Source of the DNA: Deltaproteobacteria bacterium | GTDB taxonomy: Bacteria; Desulfobacterota; Desulfobulbia; Desulfobulbales; Desulfurivibrionaceae | Reading direction: 5' to 3' | DNA length: 40,340 nt | NCBI GenBank assembly: GCA_026388735.1 | Contig: JAPLJG010000011.1 | Coordinates: 1 to 40,340 of the forward strand | In this document: one piece after another, positions 18,643 to 32,121 of the stretch | Numbering within the stretch: position 1 is the first letter of the stretch | How the letters are laid out: each line of letters begins with the position of its first letter | Notes under the pieces: model-generated | What the model saw: the letters and a program-made list of their open reading frames with translations, nothing else | What the model was told of the DNA's origin: nothing | Database searches by the model: none | Made by a program: the position numbers and the translations under genes

Positions 18643-20007
18643 TCAGCCCTCAAGCTCGTACTTCTTGATCTTGCGCCACAGAGAAACCCGGTCAATGCCC
18701 AGGGATTGGGCGGCCAGGCTCTTGTTATCCCCGTGTTCCTTTAATACCCACTCGATATAGGCCCGTTCCTGATCGGCAAGGCTTGGAATCCCGCCGCTTT
18801 TTCGGCGGAAGGTCTGGAAACAGGCGCCGCGCAGGTCTTCGGGCAGATGGCTGGCCTCAATGGTGTCGCCGCTGGCCAGAGCCACCCCGCGCTCGATGAT
18901 GTTTTCCAGCTCCCTAACATTGCCCGGAAAATCGTAACGCAGCAAAATATCCACCACCTCCGGCTCGATATTGCGCACCTCTTTGTGCATCAACACCCCG
19001 TATTTTCTGATAAAATGCTGAACCAACAGGGGCAGGTCATCCTTGCGCTCGGCCAGGGGCGGAATCTGGAGCGCCACCACGTTGATGCGGAAGAACAGAT
19101 CCTGCCGGAAATGTCCGAGCTTGACCTCTTCCTGCAGGTTCCGGTTGGTAGCCGCGAGAAAACGGACATTGACCTTGATCGGCGCAACCCCGCCCAAATG
19201 CATCACCTCTTTTTCCTGAATCACCCGGAGGAGCTTCACCTGCATGGACGGTGACATCTCGGTGATCTCATCGAGAAAAAGGGTGCCGCCATCGGCCATC
19301 TCCACCAAACCCTTCTTCGTTTCCACCGCCCCGGTAAAAGCCCCCTTCTCATGGCCAAAGAGTTCATTGGCAAGCAGATCCTCCTGAAAGGCCCCGCAAT
19401 TCACGGACAACATAGGGCCGTTGCGCCGGTTGCTACAGGCATGGACAAATCGAGCCAGCAGTTCCTTGCCGGTGCCCGACTCCCCGCAGATCACGACATT
19501 GCTGTCCGAGGTGGCGACCTGTCCGGCCGTGGCCAGCAGTTTTTTCATCCCCGGATTGTCGGTGATGATCCGGGCCTCTCCCTGAAAGGCCTTGAGGTGC
19601 TCCCGCAGCCTGCTGTTTTCCCGCTTGAGCCTGGTTTTCTCCAGGGCCTCCCGCACCACCTTGCGGACCTCATCGAGCTTGTACGGCTTGGCAATATAAT
19701 GGTAGGCCCCGGCCTTCATGGCTTCGATGGCAGAGTCCACCGTGGCATAACCGGTGATCATGATCACCTCGGTGTCGGGGTACAGCTCTCTGGTACGCTT
19801 GAGTATCTGCATGCCGCCGACCTTTTCCATCTTCAGGTCGGTCAGGACAAGGTCGAATATATTCTCCTCCAGCAGATGCAGAGCCCGGGGGCCGCTCTGG
19901 GAGGCGGTGACCTCATAGCCTTCTTTTTTCAAAACATGCTTGAGGTTATTTAAGGCAATCTCTTCGTCGTCAACGACCAAGATCCTTGCGGGTTGTTCGT
20001 CATTCAT
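18643..20007 (-). CDS. NtrC-family sigma-54-dependent response regulator
   Basis: A 454-residue activator in three parts. The receiver domain (1-120) has the acidic pair D13/D14 and phospho-acceptor D57 in LVLTDLKM. The AAA+ domain (about 145-385) has Walker [14 protein letters not shown], the sigma-54 contact loop GAFTGA and Walker [11 protein letters not shown] Fis-type helix-turn-helix ends it ([20 protein letters not shown]). Phosphorylated, it would bind enhancer sites and open sigma-54 promoters. The ATG at 20007 overlaps the kinase gene end by eight bases and has AGGA eight bases upstream. The sigma-54 promoter at 21730 is the obvious nearby target. Confidence 0.95.
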
Positions 20008-21463
20008 AACCATGTTCCTGTTGCTCTCCCGGGAGCCAAATGATGAAAGTGGTACCAAGGCCGGGGCGGCTGTCCACGGTGATAGTGCCGCCATGCCACT
20101 CGATGATGTCATGCACTATAAACAGCCCGAGGCCGGAGCCCTTGCCCACGTCCTTGGTGGTGAAAAACGGATCAAAGATCCTCTTAACGTGCTCGGCATC
20201 GATCCCCGGCCCGTCATCCTCAACGAGGATCTCCACCTCGGCAAGTCCGGTGGCTAGGCCAATACCGCGAGCGGAAACCCAGATATGGCCGTCGGCCTTG
20301 ACCGCATCGATCCCGTTCTTGATCAGGTTGAGGAGAACCTGCTGCATCCGCTGCTTATCGGCAATGACAAAAAGATCCTCCGGGATATCCACGGCAATCA
20401 CCACCTCGCTGGGCGCGTGTCCACGGATAAGCAGGATGGTTTCCTCCACCAGGGTTTTCAGGGGCAGCTTTTCCTTCCTGACCTCTTTAATCCGGGAAAA
20501 CTCCAACAGGGTGCGGACAATATCGCGGGCCTTGTCCGACTGGACCTCTATCTGACCGATAAGACTCTTCTTGAACTCGATATTGTCTTCTTCGATCTCC
20601 TCGCCCAATATCTGGGCCGAGGTGGAGATATTGGACAGAGGGTTGTTCAGCTCATGGGCCACCCCGGACAACAGGGTGCCCAGCGCCGCCAGTTTTTCCG
20701 ACTGCACCAACTGGTGCTGCCGCATCTGTAGTTCCTTCGTCATCCGGTTGAAGGCGGTGAGCAGGGAGCGGATCTCCTGCTCGCCTTCTCCCACAGCGAT
20801 CTCGACAAAATCCCCGTGGGAAATCCTCTTGGTGTAGCCCTCAAGCGCCTTGAGGGACGTCACGACCTTCCGCCCCAGAAGGGCAGCAATGGTCAGAGCG
20901 GAAACAAACAGGCAAACCATGGAGGCAAGAAGGATATTCTGGGTTGTCTTCAGGAGAGCCTTAACCTTGTTTTTCACCGCTCCCCTGGTTCTTTCCCCGA
21001 ACTCAGTAAGCTCCTTGCCCGAAGAGCGGAGTTGATCCTCGAGTTTTTCCTGGTGGCGGCTCATGCCGGGAAAATCAGCACCCTTTGCAACATCCAGATA
21101 ATAGGCATGGAGCTGGCCCATATGCCCGTTATAGGCCTCGATCACCCGTCCCAACTGCTCCAACTCCAAGGCGGAAACCACCAGCCGCAGAGCCGCCGCG
21201 TTATTTCCAAAAAGATCCCTGATCTTCTCCCAGTAGAGCTGATTTTCCTGAAAATCCTTTTCCTGACGGTACAGAAAATAATTCTTCTCGAACCGCCGCA
21301 CCTCCAGGATCGTATTGAAAAAATCCTCAACAACCTCGCCGAAGGCCACTTGCTCTTCCACCCGCTTGACAATGCCATAGGTCAAAACGGCTGAACCCAC
21401 CATAAGGGTGAGCAGCAGATAGAAGCCAAAGGTGATCTTCTTGCGTATGCCAAGGTGGAACAT
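20000..21463 (-). CDS. Membrane sensor histidine kinase, NtrB/HydH-like
   Basis: A 487-residue kinase. TM1 spans about 10-32 and TM2 about 176-197. Between them lies a helical periplasmic sensor domain with LEVRRFEKNYFLYRQEKD, a pattern seen in helical-bundle sensors. A HAMP domain follows (198-250), then HisKA with H270 in LLSGVAHELNNPLSN, then HATPase_c with NLIKNGIDAV, DDGPGID and GKGSGLGLFI. It would phosphorylate the overlapping NtrC-type regulator. The ligand is unknown; the target operon suggests sulfite, sulfur stress or envelope stress. The start at 21463 has AAGGAAG upstream. Confidence 0.93.
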   Translation of the reverse strand: MFHLGIRKKITFGFYLLLTLMVGSAVLTYGIVKRVEEQVAFGEVVEDFFNTILEVRRFEKNYFLYRQEKDFQENQLYWEKIRDLFGNNAAALRLVVSALELEQLGRVIEAYNGHMGQLHAYYLDVAKGADFPGMSRHQEKLEDQLRSSGKELTEFGERTRGAVKNKVKALLKTTQNILLASMVCLFVSALTIAALLGRKVVTSLKALEGYTKRISHGDFVEIAVGEGEQEIRSLLTAFNRMTKELQMRQHQLVQSEKLAALGTLLSGVAHELNNPLSNISTSAQILGEEIEEDNIEFKKSLIGQIEVQSDKARDIVRTLLEFSRIKEVRKEKLPLKTLVEETILLIRGHAPSEVVIAVDIPEDLFVIADKQRMQQVLLNLIKNGIDAVKADGHIWVSARGIGLATGLAEVEILVEDDGPGIDAEHVKRIFDPFFTTKDVGKGSGLGLFIVHDIIEWHGGTITVDSRPGLGTTFIIWLPGEQQEHGYE

Positions 21464-21729: not shown

Positions 21730-21745
21730 TGGCACGCTTGTTGCT
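21730..21745 (+). promoter_or_regulatory. Sigma-54 (-24/-12) promoter
   Basis: TGGCACG (21730-21736), four bases, TTGCT (21741-21745): an exact match to the RpoN consensus TGGCACG-N4-TTGCW. It lies 72 bases before the first ATG (21817) of the five-gene operon ending with the tandem UspA protein. Confidence 0.9.
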
Positions 21746-21816: not shown

Positions 21817-21996
21817 ATGAACACCATCCTGAACCGAATCGACCGCCTGATGATGGCCATTACCTTTGCCGAGGCCAACGAACCCGAACTGGCACAAGAA
21901 TATCTTGGCAGCAAGAAACCGGCACTGAACAAACGGGCACCGAAAACCACACCAATGACTGGTGGCCAGATCATGGCGAACCACACCGCCCATTGA
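21817..21996 (+). CDS. 59-residue protein with N-terminal FAEA motif
   Basis: A small protein starting MNTILNRIDRL, then the motif MMAITFAEANEPELAQEYL at residues 12-30, then a basic Pro/Thr-rich tail ending ANHTAH. No signal or membrane segment. AAAGGAGA precedes the ATG by about seven bases. It is the first gene after the sigma-54 promoter, 29 bases before the Usp-like gene. The same motif opens the next two proteins, so this protein may be little more than that helix plus a tail, for example an adaptor or docking subunit. No family name is known to me. Confidence 0.8.
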   Translation: MNTILNRIDRLMMAITFAEANEPELAQEYLGSKKPALNKRAPKTTPMTGGQIMANHTAH

Positions 21997-22025
21997 GCCG
22001 AACACTCTTACCCTTGGAACGACCC

Positions 22026-22553
22026 ATGCGCGCCCTAACGACGATGTTCAAAAAACTTGAAGAAGCCATGACTGCGGCGACCTTTGCCGAGGCCGGCGAG
22101 TTCGAGACGGCTCGCCAGCTCCTCAAGACCAACAAGAATGCACGCAAACGGGTGCTCCTGGGAACTGACAAACCAGAAATCGCTGCTAGAACCATCAACT
22201 ACGCCTTGCATCTCTGCCAACGCCTCGGCGGCGGCCTGGAAATTTTTCATATGCTGCACCTGCTGGAAAACGAAACAGCTTCCGGGCTGAACCAGGATGA
22301 CGAACCCCTTGCCGCCTTGAACTCCTCTCTGCAAGAAAAGGGCGTTATCTATCAACCGGTTAGTAGGCCGGGCTGCCTGGCGGACGAGATGCTCAAACAT
22401 GCCGGTGCTCGCCGGGACATCCTCTGCGTTGTCTTCGATGTGCTGGAGCCGGACGGCACCAACTGCCGCAAGGCAAAAGAAAACATGATCGCTAAATTTC
22501 AGGCCCTGCATTGCCCTGTCGTGATGTACGCAGGATCATCTGTCAGAGCCTGA
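22026..22553 (+). CDS. Degenerate universal-stress-like protein with N-terminal FAEA motif
   Basis: A 175-residue protein. Residues 15-33 carry the motif MTAATFAEAGEFETARQLL. From about 40 the sequence follows a Usp fold: KRVLLGTDKPEIAARTINYALHL, typical of the first strand and helix, and a last strand HCPVVMYAG. The Usp ATP-binding loop (GxxGx8-9GS) is missing: the matching region reads EPDGTNCRKAKENM. It should therefore not bind ATP in the usual way. Relatives with one Usp-like domain accompany transporters. The start at 22026 has only a weak binding site; M7 is an alternative. It is the second gene of the sigma-54 operon. Confidence 0.8.
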   Translation: MRALTTMFKKLEEAMTAATFAEAGEFETARQLLKTNKNARKRVLLGTDKPEIAARTINYALHLCQRLGGGLEIFHMLHLLENETASGLNQDDEPLAALNSSLQEKGVIYQPVSRPGCLADEMLKHAGARRDILCVVFDVLEPDGTNCRKAKENMIAKFQALHCPVVMYAGSSVRA

Positions 22554-22592
22554 TTTCTATAACTAAATTTATACCAAAATAAGGGAGAAAAA

Positions 22593-22940
22593 ATGACCAT
22601 CACCACCTTTGACAAAAACATGTCGGCTGTCGCCTTTGCCGAGGCCGGCGAACACGACACCGCCCGCCAGATTCTGGGCGCAAACGCCACAAAGCAGCAC
22701 AGCAAATCCCCGGCTCCGGCGGTAAAACGCAAGCCCTACCTGAAGACCATTATCTTCGGGGCGATGTCTATTTCCGCCTATGTCCTGCTCTTCACCAACG
22801 AAAAGCTGGTCACCGAGATCTTCACCATGGGCGGCTGGCGTTGGGTGTACCCGGTTGGGGCGGCCTTCTTCTTTTCCTTCATCCACGGGGCCTTTGCCAG
22901 CAACCTGCTGAGCGCCATTGGTCTTGAAGCAAAAAAATAA
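22593..22940 (+). CDS. Small membrane protein with N-terminal FAEA motif
   Basis: A 115-residue protein. The motif MSAVAFAEAGEHDTARQIL lies at residues 10-28, then a basic linker to about 48. Two membrane helices follow (about 50-68, IIFGAMSISAYVLLF, and 84-106, WVYPVGAAFFFSFIHGAF), ending LLSAIGLEAKK. GGGAG precedes the ATG. By topology the N-terminal motif faces the cytoplasm. It directly precedes the TauE/SafE transporter, so a role as an accessory subunit is likely but unproven. Family unknown to me. Confidence 0.8.
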   Translation: MTITTFDKNMSAVAFAEAGEHDTARQILGANATKQHSKSPAPAVKRKPYLKTIIFGAMSISAYVLLFTNEKLVTEIFTMGGWRWVYPVGAAFFFSFIHGAFASNLLSAIGLEAKK

Positions 22941-22979: not shown

Positions 22980-24320
22980 ATGAAGAAGTTATTGCTCATA
23001 CTCATGTTAGCCCTTGCCCCCCTGTCCCTGCTCGCCCAGTCGGCCCTTGCCGCTGGAGACGGGCCGTCCAAGGATATGCTCAAAGGCGTTATTACCCAAG
23101 TGAATGCCGCGGAACGCACCATTGTCTTCCAGAAGGATGACACCAAGGAATTCATCACCCTTGTCATGGGCGAGAAGATGCTGCCCGAAGACATGAAAAT
23201 GAACCAGAAGGTGCTGATCAATCTGGACAAACATGCTGCCACTGCCAACACGATGAAGGATATCTCCATCATGTTTATCGATATGAGCGTCAGCAAGCTC
23301 CTTGCCCTGCTCGTTATCGGTGCGGTGGGCGGATTGCTCTCCGGCTTCATCGGCTCAGGCGGCGCCTTTGTCATGACCCCAGCCATGATGTCCCTGGGCG
23401 TCCCGGGCGCGGTGGCAGTAGCCAGTAACATGTGCCACAAGTTCCCCAAGGCCATGGTCGGCGCCTACAAGCGCTGGAAATACGGACAGGCTGATATCAA
23501 GCTTGGCCTGGTCATGGCCTCCACCGCTGTCATCGGCGTGCAGATCGGCATCAAGATCCAGAAATACATCCTGAACCAATTCGGCGGCGCAGGCTCCAAC
23601 CTTTACATCAGCGCGGTTTTCATGGTTGTCCTGGTTTTTGTCGGCGGCTATGTGTTCTATGATGCCTGGAAACTCGCCAAGGGCGGCGGCAAAGAGACCG
23701 TGAGCAAGCTGGCCATTGCCATGCAGAAGATCAATCTTCCCCCCATGATGCACTTCAAAACCGCCAAGGTGACCATCTCCGCTTGGATCACCATCCCGGT
23801 CGGCCTGCTCACCGGCATGCTCGCCGCCACCATCGCCGTGGGCGGCTTCGTCGGCGTCCCCGGCATGATCTATGTAATCGGCGCCTCCGCCATGGTGGCC
23901 AGCGCCACCGAGTTGATCATCGCCTTTGTCATGGGCGCTTGGGGTTCGGTACAGTGGGGTCTTTCCGGCCTCATCGATATCCGCTTGGCCCTGCTGCTCC
24001 TGGCCACCTCGCTGATCGGCGTGCAGCTCGGAGCCTTGGGCACCACCTATGTCAAGGATTACATCATCAAAGTGGTCATGGCCACCACCATGCTCATCGT
24101 TGCAGTCAGCCGTGGGGTCAAGATCCCCGGCTACCTCATCGATCTTGACCTGATGAGCCCCATTAGCGCCAACACTCTTGCCCTGCTCGAAGGCATCAGC
24201 TTCTGGTCCCTGGTCCTTGCCCTTGGCTCCGCCGCGCTGATCATCATCGTGGCCATGGTCAAGGGGATGACCGCCGACCGCCACAGCAAAAGAGCCCTTG
24301 CCGGAGTAAGCAATGGCTAA
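22980..24320 (+). CDS. TauE/SafE-family sulfite/organosulfur anion exporter with periplasmic N-domain
   Basis: A 446-residue membrane protein. Residues 1-24 are a signal peptide (LLLILMLALAPLSLLAQSALA). Residues 25-95 form a small strand-rich periplasmic domain (GVITQVNAAERTIVFQKDD), followed by about eight membrane helices. The TauE motifs are GGLLSGFIGSGGAFVMTP near residue 115 and its repeat GLLTGMLAATIAVGGFVGVP in the second half. MCHKFPKAMVGAYKRWKYGQ is conserved in this subgroup. Family members export sulfite, sulfoacetate or related anions; the substrate is not proven. AAAGGAGA precedes the ATG. The stop overlaps the next gene by eight bases. Confidence 0.9.
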   Translation: MKKLLLILMLALAPLSLLAQSALAAGDGPSKDMLKGVITQVNAAERTIVFQKDDTKEFITLVMGEKMLPEDMKMNQKVLINLDKHAATANTMKDISIMFIDMSVSKLLALLVIGAVGGLLSGFIGSGGAFVMTPAMMSLGVPGAVAVASNMCHKFPKAMVGAYKRWKYGQADIKLGLVMASTAVIGVQIGIKIQKYILNQFGGAGSNLYISAVFMVVLVFVGGYVFYDAWKLAKGGGKETVSKLAIAMQKINLPPMMHFKTAKVTISAWITIPVGLLTGMLAATIAVGGFVGVPGMIYVIGASAMVASATELIIAFVMGAWGSVQWGLSGLIDIRLALLLLATSLIGVQLGALGTTYVKDYIIKVVMATTMLIVAVSRGVKIPGYLIDLDLMSPISANTLALLEGISFWSLVLALGSAALIIIVAMVKGMTADRHSKRALAGVSNG

Positions 24321-25167
24321 GTATCGAAAGATCCTCGTCGCCTACGACGGTTCCCTTTCGGCCCAAAACGCTCTCTCCCTGGCAAGCCAGCTTGCCAGGG
24401 AGGACAAGAGCTGGATCAAGGTCCTGGCCGTTGTCCCGCCCTACCAAGGGGACTTGGAGCTTCTCGGGGTTTCGGATATCAAAGAAGCCATCATCGGCCC
24501 TGGTCAGCAGCTGCTGACCGAAGCTCGGCAACTGGCGGATCGCGAAGGGGTCCACATCCTGACCAACCTGGAACAGGGTGAGCCCTACGAGCAGATCGTC
24601 CATGTCGCCGAGGAGGAGAACTGCGACCTCATCGTCATGGGTCGCCGAGGCAAGGGCAAGATGGAACGGGCTCTGATCGGCAGCGTCACTGCCCGAGTCA
24701 TCGGGCATACCAACAAGGATGTCCTGGTGATTCCGGAAACCAGCAGGCTTTCCTGGGAGAATATCCTGCTGGCCACGGACGGCTCCACGTGCTGCGACAA
24801 CGCCCTGGCCCGAGCCCTGGAGATAGCCCAGGAACGGAAAGCAAAGCTCTCCGCCGTTTCCGTGGTCTATACCAACGACGAGTTTTATGCCGTTGGCCAG
24901 GACGTGATGAAGGAGCTGTACCAGGAAGCAGACAAGGTTCTGGACAAGGTCCGCAACTGGGCCGGGGATCTCGGTGTCCAGGCAGAGCTGTTCGTGCGGG
25001 ATGGTGAGCCCCATCAGGCCATCACCGCCATGGCGGCGGAAATCTCCGCCAGCCTTATAGTCATGGGTTCCCATGGCCGGAAAGGCTTGACCCGACTGCT
25101 CATGGGCAGCGTCACCGAGCGGGTTATCGGCTATGCCGACTGCCCGGTCCTGGTCTGCCACCTGTAA
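24313..25167 (+). CDS. Tandem universal stress protein (two UspA domains)
   Basis: A 284-residue protein with two UspA domains (about 1-138 and 145-284). Each has the first-strand motif (KILVAYDGS and NILLATDGS) and the ATP-binding loop (GRRGKGKMERALIGSVT and GSHGRKGLTRLLMGSVT), so both should bind nucleotide. This contrasts with the loop-less Usp-like protein at 22026. Start and stop place it in the operon: the ATG lies inside the end of the transporter gene, so translation is coupled. A strong terminator follows. It would act in the cytoplasm as a stress or transporter regulator. Confidence 0.95.
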   Translation: MAKYRKILVAYDGSLSAQNALSLASQLAREDKSWIKVLAVVPPYQGDLELLGVSDIKEAIIGPGQQLLTEARQLADREGVHILTNLEQGEPYEQIVHVAEEENCDLIVMGRRGKGKMERALIGSVTARVIGHTNKDVLVIPETSRLSWENILLATDGSTCCDNALARALEIAQERKAKLSAVSVVYTNDEFYAVGQDVMKELYQEADKVLDKVRNWAGDLGVQAELFVRDGEPHQAITAMAAEISASLIVMGSHGRKGLTRLLMGSVTERVIGYADCPVLVCHL

Positions 25168-27944: not shown

Positions 27945-28037
27945 TAACCGTTCAGCAGCACCGCACATGAGCAGGCCGATGACAGCTAAGCGAGTGTGGC
28001 GAGACTGCGAAGCAGATGCGATGCTACTGGACGGTTA
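27945..28037. repeat. 93-bp element with 16-bp terminal inverted repeats
   Basis: TAACCGTTCAGCAGCA (27945-27960) and TGCTACTGGACGGTTA (28022-28037) are inverted copies matching at 14 of 16 positions. The interior has no open frame. The right end covers the stop codon of the ATP-binding protein gene (28035-28037). It looks like a small non-autonomous mobile element or a REP unit. Confidence 0.65.
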
Positions 28038-28784
28038 CCGATTGCAAATTGGGCAGCCTTGCATAGCAAAAGGCTTTTCCAACCGACAGGCGGCAAGCAA
28101 CGCCTCGTCTTGAAAGATATCCAGGGTCGGGCCATCGGCCCTGACCTCCCCCTCGTGCAGGACGATGGTCCGCTCGCACAGCTCCAACACCATATCCAAA
28201 TCGTGGCTGGTGAAAATCCGGGTATGATGAAAGTCTTTTAACAGCGCCATAAGCTGCCGCCGGGCAAAGGGATCAAGTCCGCTGGTCGGCTCATCCATGA
28301 CCAGAATATCCGGCGACATGGCCAGCACCGTGGCGATGGCCACCCGCTTTTTTTCCCCGCCGGAAAGCCGGTAGGGCGGCTTGTCGCGCAGATGCTCCGC
28401 CCCGACCCGTGCCAAGGCCTGCCGCACCCGCTCTTCCAGCTCATCCCCCTCCAGGCCCAGGTTCTGCGGGCCAAAGGCCACATCGTCAAACACGGTGGGC
28501 ATGAACAACTGGTCGTCCGGATCCTGAAAAACCATACCCACCGTACGCCGGATCTCGGGTAGGGTGGCTTTATTCAGGGGGAAATCACCGATGCGGATAG
28601 TACCCTGACTGGTAGCCAGATACCCGTTCAGATGCAGGAGCAGGGTGGATTTGCCCGCCCCGTTGGCGCCGATGATCGCCACCGATTCGCCGTGGGTGAT
28701 CCGGAAGGAAACGGACCGCAGGGCCTCGGTGCCATCGGGATAGACATGACGCAGATCCTTGACCTCGACAATATGATGGCTCAT
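28035..28784 (-). CDS. cbiO: Nickel/cobalt ECF transporter ATP-binding protein (NikO/CbiO)
   Basis: ATPase of an energy-coupling-factor transporter, 249 residues. The Walker A motif is GANGAGKSTLLLHLNG, then the Q-loop FQDPDDQLFMPTV, signature LSGGEKKRVAIATVLAM, Walker B ILVMDEPTSGLDP and the switch histidine in FTSHDLDMV. The DDQLF after the Q-loop is typical of ECF ATPases. The ATG at 28784 overlaps the cbiQ TGA (ATGA). NikR and the NikMN gene next door favour nickel. The last residues (AMQGCPICNR) run into the inverted-repeat element, so the C-terminus may have been remodelled. Confidence 0.95.
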   Translation of the reverse strand: MSHHIVEVKDLRHVYPDGTEALRSVSFRITHGESVAIIGANGAGKSTLLLHLNGYLATSQGTIRIGDFPLNKATLPEIRRTVGMVFQDPDDQLFMPTVFDDVAFGPQNLGLEGDELEERVRQALARVGAEHLRDKPPYRLSGGEKKRVAIATVLAMSPDILVMDEPTSGLDPFARRQLMALLKDFHHTRIFTSHDLDMVLELCERTIVLHEGEVRADGPTLDIFQDEALLAACRLEKPFAMQGCPICNR

Positions 28785-29563
28785 CCCAACACCCCTGTAA
28801 CAATCGATCCCAGAAACTGGGAAACATTAACCAGACGAAAAAGAAGAAACAACCCCGACCAACCCGCAAGAAAAAGCAACTCCCTGCCCCCGAACCGGGT
28901 TGTCCGGCGCGGGTGGAATTCCCCGCTGAACCCCCTGGCCAGCATGGCAAGATGAATCCGCTCCGCCCGCAGCCAGGTGCGCAGCAGGAGATGACTGATC
29001 AACGAGCCGTAGGAGCGCCACCCCAGTCCTTTATTGCCAAACGCCCGAAGCTCGCGAGCCCGCGCCGTCCGGCCGCCTTCTTCGGTGAGGACAAACAGAT
29101 AGCGGTACAGAAAAAGAAGCTGCACGGTAAAGATTCTGGGCAGGCCCAACTGATCAAGGGCCTGGCAGATCGCGGGAAAACCGGTTGTGCCGACCAGGAT
29201 GAGGGCGGCCCCAACGGTGAGCGTTGCCCGGACCAGAATGGAGGCGCAGGAAAGCCAACCACCGCTGATGCCCAGGGGGCCGAGGCGGACCAGCACCACC
29301 ATCAGGGCAAAGGGCAGGACCACCACGACCTTTCTGGCGATATAGCGGGCCGACAGATTACCCAGCGCCATGAGCACCGCCGGGTAGAGGAAAAAAGGAA
29401 ATAGCGCAGCCAGTTCGTATTTACCCAGGGAAACCACGGTCAGGATAAAGACCAGGGTCACCAACACCTTGGCCCTGGCATCCAGCCGATGCACCCCCGT
29501 ATTCCCGGTGGCCATCAGGTCGAGCTGCCTGAAATCCTTTACCGCTCCGCCAATGGACGCCAT
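28781..29563 (-). CDS. cbiQ: ECF transporter transmembrane protein (NikQ/CbiQ)
   Basis: The 260-residue T component of the nickel/cobalt ECF transporter. N-terminal HRLDARAKVL is the family start. Several membrane helices follow, and the two coupling helices carry the Ala-Arg-Gly motifs ARARELRAFGNKG and LAMLARGFSGEF that contact the ATPase. GGAGAGGCGG precedes the ATG at 29563. A terminator-like hairpin sits just upstream. The stop overlaps cbiO. Confidence 0.93.
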   Translation of the reverse strand: MASIGGAVKDFRQLDLMATGNTGVHRLDARAKVLVTLVFILTVVSLGKYELAALFPFFLYPAVLMALGNLSARYIARKVVVVLPFALMVVLVRLGPLGISGGWLSCASILVRATLTVGAALILVGTTGFPAICQALDQLGLPRIFTVQLLFLYRYLFVLTEEGGRTARARELRAFGNKGLGWRSYGSLISHLLLRTWLRAERIHLAMLARGFSGEFHPRRTTRFGGRELLFLAGWSGLFLLFRLVNVSQFLGSIVTGVLG

Positions 29564-29574
29564 CCGCCTCTCCG

Positions 29575-29610
29575 AAAAAAAGAGGGGAAGAGGCGTTCAG
29601 CCTCCTCCCC
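29575..29610 (-). terminator. Terminator/attenuator between nikMN and nikQO
   Basis: On the leftward transcript: 11-base stem (29600-29610 with 29584-29594, one G-U pair), five-base loop, then CT and seven T (29575-29581). It lies inside the operon, with the cbiQ ribosome binding site right after the T run. It would reduce expression of cbiQO unless overcome. Confidence 0.75.
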
Positions 29611-29647
29611 GTGTTCACACGATTCCCATTACTCCCGGGCTGCTTCT

Positions 29648-30670
29648 TCAGGCCACCCTGCCCTGTTTCCTTAAGAAAATACCGCTCAGAAAAGCGATGG
29701 CCAAGGTCAGCAGGCCGCCGACAATACCGGCCACGCTGGTTCCCAAAGGCGATTCCTGCCCCGCCACGTTTTCCGGTTGTTGCTCGGATTTTTTGAACGT
29801 ATACTCCGGAAGAAAGGCAATTGATTCCTGAAGCGCGGCGAGGCGGGCATGCAGCCCCGCCTGCGGCCCGGCGGATTCTTCCCCACCGGTGACCTTGGCG
29901 ATGGCCCATTCCAGACCATCGGGATTTTCCGAGGCAAACCAGGAAACAAACCCGCCGATCAGCAGGGCTGCCGCGAGAAAGGCTGCCAGGACGTTGCGCA
30001 ACGGGGTTGCACCAAGGGGACGATTCGCTTGGACGCTCTGGATGATTTCCGGGCGGGCCTGGTAGACAAAAGAAACCACGGCACCGGTCACCAGCCCCTC
30101 CACCACCCCGATGGCCAGATGGATCGGCTGCATGAGACTGACAAAGGTGGCAAAGGGCAGGGAGGAGATGCCCGAGGCCACGGTCTCCAGCACTACGGAA
30201 AAGGCACCCAACTGGAGGCCAATAATGGCGGCAACCATTGCGGCCACGGCGATCCTGGCCTTGCTCGGCGCACTGCCGACCAAGGGCTTATAGATAAAGG
30301 GATAGGCGAGAAAGGCTGGGAAAAAACCGAGGTTGAAGATATTGCACCCTAGGGCCAACAACCCACCATCGGCAAAAAACAGCGCCTGCACCACCAGCAC
30401 CGAAGCAATGGTGATGAAGGCGGCAGCAGGCCCGAGCAAAACCGCAAGGAGAAGACCGCCGCCGAGATGCCCGCTGGAACCGGTGCCCGGAATGGTGAAG
30501 TTGATCATCTGCGCGGCAAAGAGAAAGGCACCCAGAACCCCCATGAGCGGTGCCTTACCACCGTCCATTTCTTTGCGCAACTTTCTGGAACAGTATATGA
30601 TGGTGCCTGCGGAAACGACCCACATGGTCCCACCGACCGCAGGGGATAATAACGCGTCAGCCATATGCAT
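29648..30670 (-). CDS. cbiM: Fused nickel ECF substrate-capture protein NikMN (CbiM with CbiN-like C-terminus)
   Basis: A 340-residue fusion. Residues 1-215 are the CbiM/NikM substrate-binding membrane protein, beginning MHMADALLSPAVGG. The N-terminal Met1-His2 binds the metal, and GSSGHLGGGLLLAVLLGP carries another ligand. The second part is the NikN/CbiN-like portion with the PDGLE motif (ENPDGLEWAI) and a final membrane helix. Fused NikMN proteins are typical nickel transporters. AAGGAG precedes the ATG at 30670. It follows the outer-membrane protein gene by 43 bases, in one operon. Confidence 0.93.
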   Translation of the reverse strand: MHMADALLSPAVGGTMWVVSAGTIIYCSRKLRKEMDGGKAPLMGVLGAFLFAAQMINFTIPGTGSSGHLGGGLLLAVLLGPAAAFITIASVLVVQALFFADGGLLALGCNIFNLGFFPAFLAYPFIYKPLVGSAPSKARIAVAAMVAAIIGLQLGAFSVVLETVASGISSLPFATFVSLMQPIHLAIGVVEGLVTGAVVSFVYQARPEIIQSVQANRPLGATPLRNVLAAFLAAALLIGGFVSWFASENPDGLEWAIAKVTGGEESAGPQAGLHARLAALQESIAFLPEYTFKKSEQQPENVAGQESPLGTSVAGIVGGLLTLAIAFLSGIFLRKQGRVA

Positions 30671-30713
30671 GGTGTTTTCTCCTTGTGTGTAAAAGAAGTT
30701 CTGCGATTATCCG

Positions 30714-31499
30714 CTAAAATTTCCAGGTGACGCCAGCAAGCACGGTGCGGTCAGTCTCGGAATTATTGAGCCCGTACTTGATCCCACAATCGAGAGCAAG
30801 ATCCTCAGAGAGGGTATAGATCAAGCCTGCCAGGACGAAGGCGGGATCGGTGCCGACGAGTTTGTCTGGGTTGCTTTCAACGCCGAGGTTGGCAACTGCG
30901 GTGAGATTCTCGGTTAAGGCAACCGTGGAAGCGATGGATGCATGCCAAATATTCTTTTCTTCGTCCAAGGTGTTTTCGTTTCGGATATAGCCGAGGTTGA
31001 GATGGAAGGCCCACGGGTCCATTTCCTTTGAGGTAACAAAAAAGAGGCGGTAGGTGGCCTTGCCCGCGCCCAAGCCTTCTTGGTCATCGCCGGTGGGCAG
31101 GGTGACTCCTGGTTTGATGGCAAGGCTCAAGCCGTCATGCTCATAGAACCTCCACTTCACTGCGAGGGAGGTGTCGGAGAAGCCATTTTCAATCCTGGAG
31201 GTTGTGTCGTCGCTGGTTTTGACATGCAGATAGGGGAGGTCGAGAACAAGATCCACCGCATCGCTGAGCCCATAGGTAAAGCATGCGTCTCCCTGCCTTG
31301 TTTTTGTGGTAAACCCATCTTCCTTGTCATGCCCATATTCGCCGGTCAGTTCGAGCTGGGATTTGCCGGTGCCCATGGTACCGGCATCGTCCGTGATCAG
31401 CGGGTGGGCGGCAAAAGCGGCGGTCGCGCAAGAAAGAACGCTGAAGAAGACAAGGGGGAGAGACAGGGATTGGATTCGCGATACAGGGGATAATTTCAT
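30714..31499 (-). CDS. Outer-membrane beta-barrel protein of the nickel operon
   Basis: A 261-residue exported protein. A signal peptide (SLPLVFFSVLSCATAAFAAHP) is followed by HPLITDDAGTMGTGKSQLEL, a start seen in MetA-like outer-membrane transporters. Alternating amphipathic strands then run to a C-terminal aromatic residue (VTWKF), the usual outer-membrane sorting signal. Location upstream of nikMN and next to nikR suggests nickel passage or binding at the outer membrane; that function is inferred. The ATG at 31499 is better spaced from GAAGGA than the one nine bases earlier. Confidence 0.8.
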   Translation of the reverse strand: MKLSPVSRIQSLSLPLVFFSVLSCATAAFAAHPLITDDAGTMGTGKSQLELTGEYGHDKEDGFTTKTRQGDACFTYGLSDAVDLVLDLPYLHVKTSDDTTSRIENGFSDTSLAVKWRFYEHDGLSLAIKPGVTLPTGDDQEGLGAGKATYRLFFVTSKEMDPWAFHLNLGYIRNENTLDEEKNIWHASIASTVALTENLTAVANLGVESNPDKLVGTDPAFVLAGLIYTLSEDLALDCGIKYGLNNSETDRTVLAGVTWKF

Positions 31500-31517
31500 T
31501 TCAGGCATTCCTTCGAT

Positions 31518-31542
31518 GTTATATTAGTAAGTAACGTGTTAC
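31518..31542 (-). promoter_or_regulatory. Leftward nickel-operon promoter with candidate NikR operator
   Basis: A palindrome GTAAC-GT-GTTAC (31531-31542) lies directly upstream of a -10-like TAATAT (31521-31526, or TATAAC 31518-31523) for the leftward operon. It sits where the -35/-10 spacer would be. This is a typical repressor position. The arms resemble the GTGTTAC-type half-sites proposed for NikR in related bacteria, but the full spacing is not matched. Confidence 0.4.
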
Positions 31543-31633
31543 CTGGTCCCGTGCCGGATATTTCTCTAAAAAGTAAATATTCCATCGTGGGCAGTAGCGT
31601 GCCCGACGGCAAGTAGCACGACATTTTATTTGG

Positions 31634-31671
31634 TGACACGAATTAAATATAATATTCCGGAATAGGTGTCA
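31634..31671 (+). promoter_or_regulatory. nikR promoter region with inverted repeat
   Basis: TATAAT (31648-31653) is a perfect -10 facing nikR. It is flanked by inverted TGACAC (31634-31639) and GTGTCA (31666-31671), centres 32 bases apart. Possible autoregulatory site; the -35 is weak. Confidence 0.4.
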
Positions 31672-31695
31672 ACACTTTTTGCAAGGAGAAGATAT

Positions 31696-32121
31696 ATGGG
31701 GAAAACCATCCGTTTCGGAATCTCACTGGATGAGAACCTGCTGACAAGCTATGACCAGCACATCGAAGCCAAGGGCTACATGAACCGCTCCGAGGCGATC
31801 CGCGACCTGATCCGCTCAGCCCTGGTGGAGGAGAAATGGGATACCGGTGACGCGGATGCGGAGATGGTCGGCACCGTTACCCTGGTGTACAACCACCATG
31901 TCCGCGATCTTTCCGACAAGCTGACCGAGCACCAACACGCCCACCATGACCGGGTCATCTCGGCGCTCCATGTGCATCTCGACGCGCATAACTGCTTGGA
32001 GGTTCTGGTGGTGCGGGGGCCGGTGGGGGAGGTAAAACGAATCGCCAACGAACTCATCGGGGTGAAGGGGGTCAAGCACGGCCAACTGGTCATGACCACA
32101 ACCGGTCAGGAACTCCACTAA
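31696..32121 (+). CDS. nikR: Nickel-responsive regulator NikR
   Basis: A 141-residue repressor. The ribbon-helix-helix domain (1-45, [16 protein letters not shown]...[15 protein letters not shown]) binds DNA. The ACT-like domain binds Ni2+ through H81, H92, H94 and C100, matching E. coli H76, H87, H89 and C95 in the pattern HxH-x5-C ([14 protein letters not shown]). The set is complete, so it should sense nickel. AAGGAGAAG precedes the ATG at 31696. It is divergent from the nickel operon, its likely target. The extra 30 upstream bases of a longer frame overlap its own promoter. Confidence 0.97.

Follow-up and report, generated by a model that had tools for sequence, protein, structure and literature searches.

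A conserved FAEA tag shared by otherwise different proteins of a sigma54-linked stress and transport operon in Desulfobacterota and Nitrospirota

Among the systems described to date, the closest to the locus analysed here is the 'three-component' general-stress system of Desulfovibrio vulgaris encoded by DVU3303-3305, which comprises a histidine kinase, a sigma54 response regulator and a receiver-Lon protein (PMC3333781, PMC4641369, PMC10102598). This system regulates DVU3298-3302 (Rajeev 2011, PMC3333781; Kazakov 2015, PMC4641369), its genes present common fitness patterns (Trotter 2023, PMC10102598), and DVU3299, a putative anion transporter among its targets, is important in chlorate (PMC10102598). 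In addition, nine TSUP/PSE operons with sigma54 regulation were reported in Desulfovibrio (PMC4641369). The portions consulted contained no mention of a shared tag in the DVU3303-3305 literature and no description of tag-bearing accessory proteins in Desulfovibrio TSUP operons (PMC4641369), and literature searches on the letters of the motif and on DVU0258-0261 returned no papers.

A Usp fold encoded together with a membrane transporter is also seen in TeaD of the TeaABC system and in the Usp domain of KdpD. To our knowledge, neither TeaD nor KdpD carries the FAEA hairpin considered below; they also differ from the present case in that here the transporter is of the TauE or CitMHS type and the Usp-like protein itself bears a tag.

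The window, that is, the whole stretch of 40,340 nucleotides of DNA analysed here, resembles the D. vulgaris system in having a histidine kinase and a sigma54 NtrC-type regulator, which adjoin an operon whose products include Usp-like proteins, membrane proteins and a putative anion transporter (Table 1). The kinase and regulator genes occupy positions 18643-21463 of the minus strand, and many relatives of the operon adjoin a receiver-Lon gene; the genome from which the window derives differs in lacking it. From gene content and domain architecture, we infer that the kinase, regulator and receiver-Lon set of the loci described below is homologous to DVU3303-3305. The window operon also has in common with the Desulfovibrio TauE/SafE (TSUP) exporters both the transporter family and sigma54 control.

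Table 1. Positions in the window of the tagged genes, their neighbours and the predicted control elements
Feature	Position	Strand	Observations
Divergent NtrC-type response regulator (REC, sigma54 activator, Fis HTH)	18643..20112	-	domain matches
Divergent histidine kinase (HAMP, HisKA, HATPase)	20000..21463	-	domain matches
Possible activator-binding repeats, 15-nt inverted repeat with TTGCAAC/GTTGCAA	21579..21658	.	putative function
Predicted sigma54 -24/-12 promoter TGGCACGCTTGTTGCT	21730..21745	+	11/11 match
P1, 59 aa	21817..21996	+	tag at residues 12-30, then poorly conserved tail
P2, 175 aa	22026..22553	+	tag at residues 15-33 (N-terminal hairpin, predicted), then divergent Usp fold (predicted)
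P3, 115 aa	22593..22940	+	tag at residues 10-28, then conserved hydrophobic domain of ~70 aa
TauE/SafE-family transporter with N-terminal extension	22980..24320	+	PF01925 E=1.7e-34, over gathering score
Tandem universal stress protein, two Usp domains, untagged	24313..25167	+	PF00582 E=6.3e-65

The predicted sigma54 promoter is placed 71 bp 5' of the P1 start codon, is the sole match in the window and is kept upstream of orthologous operons. Across the clusters of tagged genes, a site matching at least 10 of the 11 positions was found upstream of 65 of 154, against 0.5% in Markov-shuffled sequences and 1/154 on the opposite strand, and among the loci of at least 14 kb a sigma54 regulator and a kinase were each present in 73 of 84. 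The transporter reached 119.9 bits with PF01925 (gathering score 32.6), and the untagged tandem Usp gene is the conserved last gene of the operon. P2 matched PF00582 at E=5.8e-4 and 20.9 bits, under the gathering score of 24, which was surpassed by its relatives in L079 (39.3) and in the fused L203 (27.5). A Foldseek search of the PDB with the AF2 model of P2 returned universal stress proteins first, with E down to 1.1e-4 and TM of just 0.4-0.55, including TeaD, which is associated with a TRAP transporter, and the Usp domain of KdpD; P2 is predicted on these grounds to have a divergent Usp (HUP-type) fold. The hydrophobic domain of P3, by inspection two transmembrane helices, matched no Pfam family, and a match to P3 from contig C20 covered the membrane part only, in an unrelated frame, and was set aside as chance. 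Elsewhere in the window, genes resembling a cobalt/nickel ECF transporter (CbiM/CbiQ/CbiO-type) lie by a CopG/NikR-like regulator at 28035-32121, judging from a reading of the sequence.

An earlier note on this DNA had proposed that P1, P2 and P3 share a 19-residue N-terminal motif on otherwise unrelated proteins. The open reading frames and the three blocks proved exact on recheck, and the 14-nt block CCTTTGCCGAGGCC is indeed common to the three genes; since the same FAEA codons would occur in three copies from codon usage alone with p ~0.004, this DNA identity is only a weak additional argument. A profile HMM built with Nitrospirota copies only and run on the window ORFs recovered P1, P2 and P3 with 27.0, 48.9 and 48.0 bits (E 1.5e-7, 2e-14 and 4e-14) and picked out no other window ORF: the next one reached 5.4 bits and the best of ~14,000 shuffled ORFs 6.9 bits, so that the motif stands far above chance. 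P1 presented pN/pS of 0.35-0.62 against its orthologues, indicating purifying selection, and by this measure it is a real protein.

The note had itself considered that the motif might be a low-information helix found at random in unrelated genes, or that the three genes might not co-occur in other genomes. Neither turned out to be so: matches crossed phyla, the window's genome carries just seven copies, all of them in two clusters, and the same gene order was found in more than 20 other assemblies. Such clusters co-occurred across genomes, which supports the note's picture of one module carried by otherwise dissimilar proteins whose operon also encodes a TauE exporter. Absent from the note were the sigma54 promoter, the divergent kinase and regulator, the second cluster with its tagged receivers and the receiver-Lon protease, all of which are considered here. 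Likewise, its statement that no described family fits agreed with the absence of matches to the motif in Pfam, NCBIfam, the PDB and text searches. The tag is real, occurs widely and has no description in the libraries and literature searched.

Regarding its distribution, 36 of 58 relatives carried the tag (E<=0.05), as did 34 of 297 genomes drawn from across the phylum (E<=1e-4), while a scan of named genomes gave 79 tag loci in Desulfobacterota and Nitrospirota, one of them labelled Chromatiales. Most tag loci hold two to five tagged genes together. Loci L114-L135 keep the order (P1)-P2-P3-TauE-Usp with the divergent kinase and regulator where the contig is long enough, and in other clusters tagged Usp-like proteins are paired with CitMHS transporters.

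The second cluster of the window's genome, on contig C80 (L008), contains a protein of ~99 aa in which two tag copies are spaced by exactly 34 residues. It also contains two proteins tagged at the C-terminus, one a degenerate receiver-like protein (PF00072 27.5 bits, under cutoff) and the other a receiver protein that is intact (94 bits). Genes for a Fis-type HTH protein, a kinase, a receiver and a TauE homologue come next, along with others, and a sigma54 regulator is encoded divergently. These C-terminal and tandem copies indicate that the tag is bound neither to the N-terminus nor to P1, P2 and P3. Moreover, it occurs inside the Usp domain, between the fold halves, in L079:7477-7983 (residues 83-105 of the open frame), L091:4914-5462 and L212:5638-6162, and near residue 200 of PEP-synthase-like proteins of ~890 aa (L175:3593-6271, L187:8624-11296, L182 and L184).

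Other features were observed at these loci. The small tagged proteins of L070, L071, L079, L081 and L085 often share a C-terminal tail resembling RPELRV/RPTLRM. In L086:7067-8569, the tandem tag lies in a 501-aa frame with an N-terminal helix-turn-helix/transposase-like part, a fusion or an artefact. In one tagged-receiver cluster, the gene lying between those of the sigma54 regulator and the kinase (L090:10524-10880) codes for a dinitrogenase FeMo-cofactor (NifX-like) family protein, and L074, L076 and L099 have genes of ~110-120 aa at that place.

The consensus derived from 138 non-redundant copies, with the F numbered 0, has a hydrophobic residue at -9, E/D at -8, M/F at -5 and A at -3 (93%); F 0 (96%), A +1 (99%), E +2 (96%), A/E +3 and G/N +4; and then E +5, H/F +6, E/D +7, T +8, A +9 (91%), R/K/L +10 and hydrophobic residues at +12/+13. 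The motif had been read as one amphipathic helix, and this part of the earlier description had to be revised: the AF2 model of P2, built from 39 sequences, has a helix at residues 2-20, a turn at 21-25 (EAGE) and a second helix at 26-35, followed by the Usp-type fold, with a pLDDT of 73 overall and a modest ~55-68 in the hairpin. The 19 residues are predicted to be the core of a longer portable unit, a helical hairpin that spans ~26-30 residues and is here called the 'FAEA hairpin'. In comparisons of P2 between Nitrospirota and Desulfobacterota, the motif core was 57% identical and the Usp part 24%, which makes the tag, by sequence identity, the most conserved part of this protein.

What the hairpin does is best explained, at about even chances in our estimation, by a docking or co-assembly module, as the note had suggested, here of a two-component, sigma54-controlled stress/transport system. 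The active divergent kinase and NtrC-type regulator would switch on the sigma54 promoter and drive P1-P2-P3-TauE-Usp; P1, which is little more than a tag, the Usp-like P2 and the membrane protein P3 would associate via the hairpin, whether by contacting one another or by binding the same partner, and this association would bring a Usp regulatory domain to the membrane, next to the anion exporter. The motif, its conservation and modularity, the operon linkage and the promoter pattern are observed; the docking function, the partner and an effect on TauE are inferred. Docking is the best-supported function because the Usp-like and two-transmembrane domains are fused in loci without the tag. In nine receiver-Lon loci without tag (L200-L207 and L214), the P3 membrane domain and a Usp-like domain form a single protein of 257-302 aa, and the kinase/regulator/TauE/Usp neighbourhood is largely kept; these loci were chosen for having receiver-Lon and no motif, and the number of origins behind them may be small. 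Conversely, short-P3 loci had tagged genes nearby in 46 of 46 cases, as did one long P3 (L097). In the TauE tree, the tag-bearing split loci L087 and L104 nest within the fused group, which forces at least two changes. A pattern of this kind would be predicted if the tag were the non-covalent counterpart of the fusion.

Docking is further favoured by the modular placement of the tag (N-terminal in P1, P2 and P3, C-terminal on receivers, tandem and internal), by its conservation within P2, by the sigma54 promoters and the D. vulgaris set, and by the precedent of a Usp regulator with a transporter that TeaD offers among the Foldseek matches. Against it count the absence of the tag from P3 in Nitrospirota and in L087, L098 and L104, where P1/P2 keep it; the loci L208-L210, whose P188-type Usp has neither a recognisable tag nor a fusion; the small number of forced tree changes and the selected sampling; and the model of the tandem-tag protein, which shows helix pairs at low confidence (pLDDT 52), too low to serve in a fold search. 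The linkage of the tag to receiver-Lon also counts against docking, as it fits proteolysis equally well.

Indeed, the presence of this protease near tag genes makes a proteolysis tag a serious rival to docking, and the main one. The FAEA hairpin would in that case act as a degron or delivery tag through which receiver-Lon, or ordinary Lon in genomes without the fusion, carries out regulated proteolysis, and receiver phosphorylation would switch the turnover of all tagged proteins; we hold this to be rather unlikely overall. The ~675-aa protein encoded divergently from many tag genes has REC, AAA and Lon_C domains, and its labelling as a sigma54-like regulator, which weak phmmer matches had suggested, was dropped. 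In L070:2498-4516, L136:6885-8882, L163:8063-10159, L171:3138-5138 and L189:7394-9418, the receiver is inserted after the helical region of the Lon-type protease and ahead of its Walker A motif. The globular N-terminal domain of Lon is responsible for substrate recognition; by inspection, receiver-Lon begins in the helical region and apparently lacks this domain. The N-terminal, C-terminal and internal placements would suit a tag. Across the 297 phylum genomes, full-length receiver-Lon and the tag occurred together in 22, the tag only in 12, receiver-Lon only in 14 and neither in 249 (odds ratio 33, p=1.1e-15), and in 17 of the 22 genomes with both the two genes were at most 3.4 kb apart.

This co-occurrence has exceptions on both sides. 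In the window's genome, a 91.6% complete assembly (G000), receiver-Lon is absent and just Lon-domain matches were found, whereas in the congener G006 it adjoins a tag gene. With 11 further tag-bearing phylum genomes in the same situation, 12 of 34 carry the tag without the protease and with motif scores about equal, and an obligatory receiver-Lon degron is disfavoured. On the other side, a broader tag profile run on the 14 receiver-Lon-only genomes gave clear copies in one and a marginal match in another; in at least 12 genomes with receiver-Lon no tag could be detected, and those inspected keep the same Usp/TauE operon. The 34-residue tandem spacing is also unexpected for a degron.

Docking and recognition by (receiver-)Lon could be combined. 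The tag may be an operon-wide address read by a phosphorylation-switched receiver-Lon or by a shared scaffold, which would recognise every member of the module: Usp adaptors, receiver domains, the membrane subunit and PEP-synthase-like enzymes. We offer this reading tentatively and would be inclined to bet against it.

A still less probable reading, which we consider quite unlikely, takes the hairpin as a single TPR-like unit serving as a structural cap or linker within each protein, with no common partner and with its spread owed to duplication within the operon family. The weak likeness to TPR would lie in the predicted helix-turn-helix and in tandem copies most often spaced by 34 residues (others 31-53), with three in a row once. 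The pattern A-x2-F-x3-G-x-[arom]-x2-A-x3-L fits TPR positions 8, 11, 15, 17, 20 and 24, TPR_4 and TPR_6 gave weak matches (E 0.04-0.75; the best, to TPR_4, at E=0.041 and 14.9 bits against a cutoff of 27), and hhalign of the tag with five TPR consensus units written from general knowledge gave a probability of 58.6%, against at most 1% in column-permuted controls. Unlike TPR proteins, tagged proteins mostly have a single unit. TPR positions 4, 7, 27 and 32 are unmatched, no Pfam TPR model reaches its cutoff on the tag and none matched P1-P3, and a PDB sequence search with the tag found nothing meaningful and no TPR chain even at E 10. Moreover, P1 is almost tag alone, which leaves nothing to cap. 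Filing the tag as a TPR was rejected on the cutoffs and the PDB search and only the resemblance was kept: at most, to judge from its sequence, the tag may work like a TPR-type hairpin. Finally, chance likeness between low-information helices, or nothing more than a recent duplication of local DNA, which the identical 14-nt block in three adjoining genes might suggest, deserves practically no credence and is already refuted at the sequence level by the cross-phylum profile matches, the standing of the motif as the best conserved part of P2 and the confinement of the copies to two clusters.

The finding gives a name to a short, strongly conserved module of Desulfobacterota and Nitrospirota that is in no family library searched. 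Through the tag, a group of 'hypothetical' proteins is linked to a stress system that is known but lacks an explanation, composed of a kinase, a sigma54 regulator, a receiver-Lon protease and an anion transporter, whose mutants in D. vulgaris have phenotypes in chlorate (PMC10102598). If the tag were an operon-wide address, the kinase input would be coupled both to transcription and to the post-translational control of the same tagged proteins. In any case, the tag offers this stress system a testable substrate or partner code.
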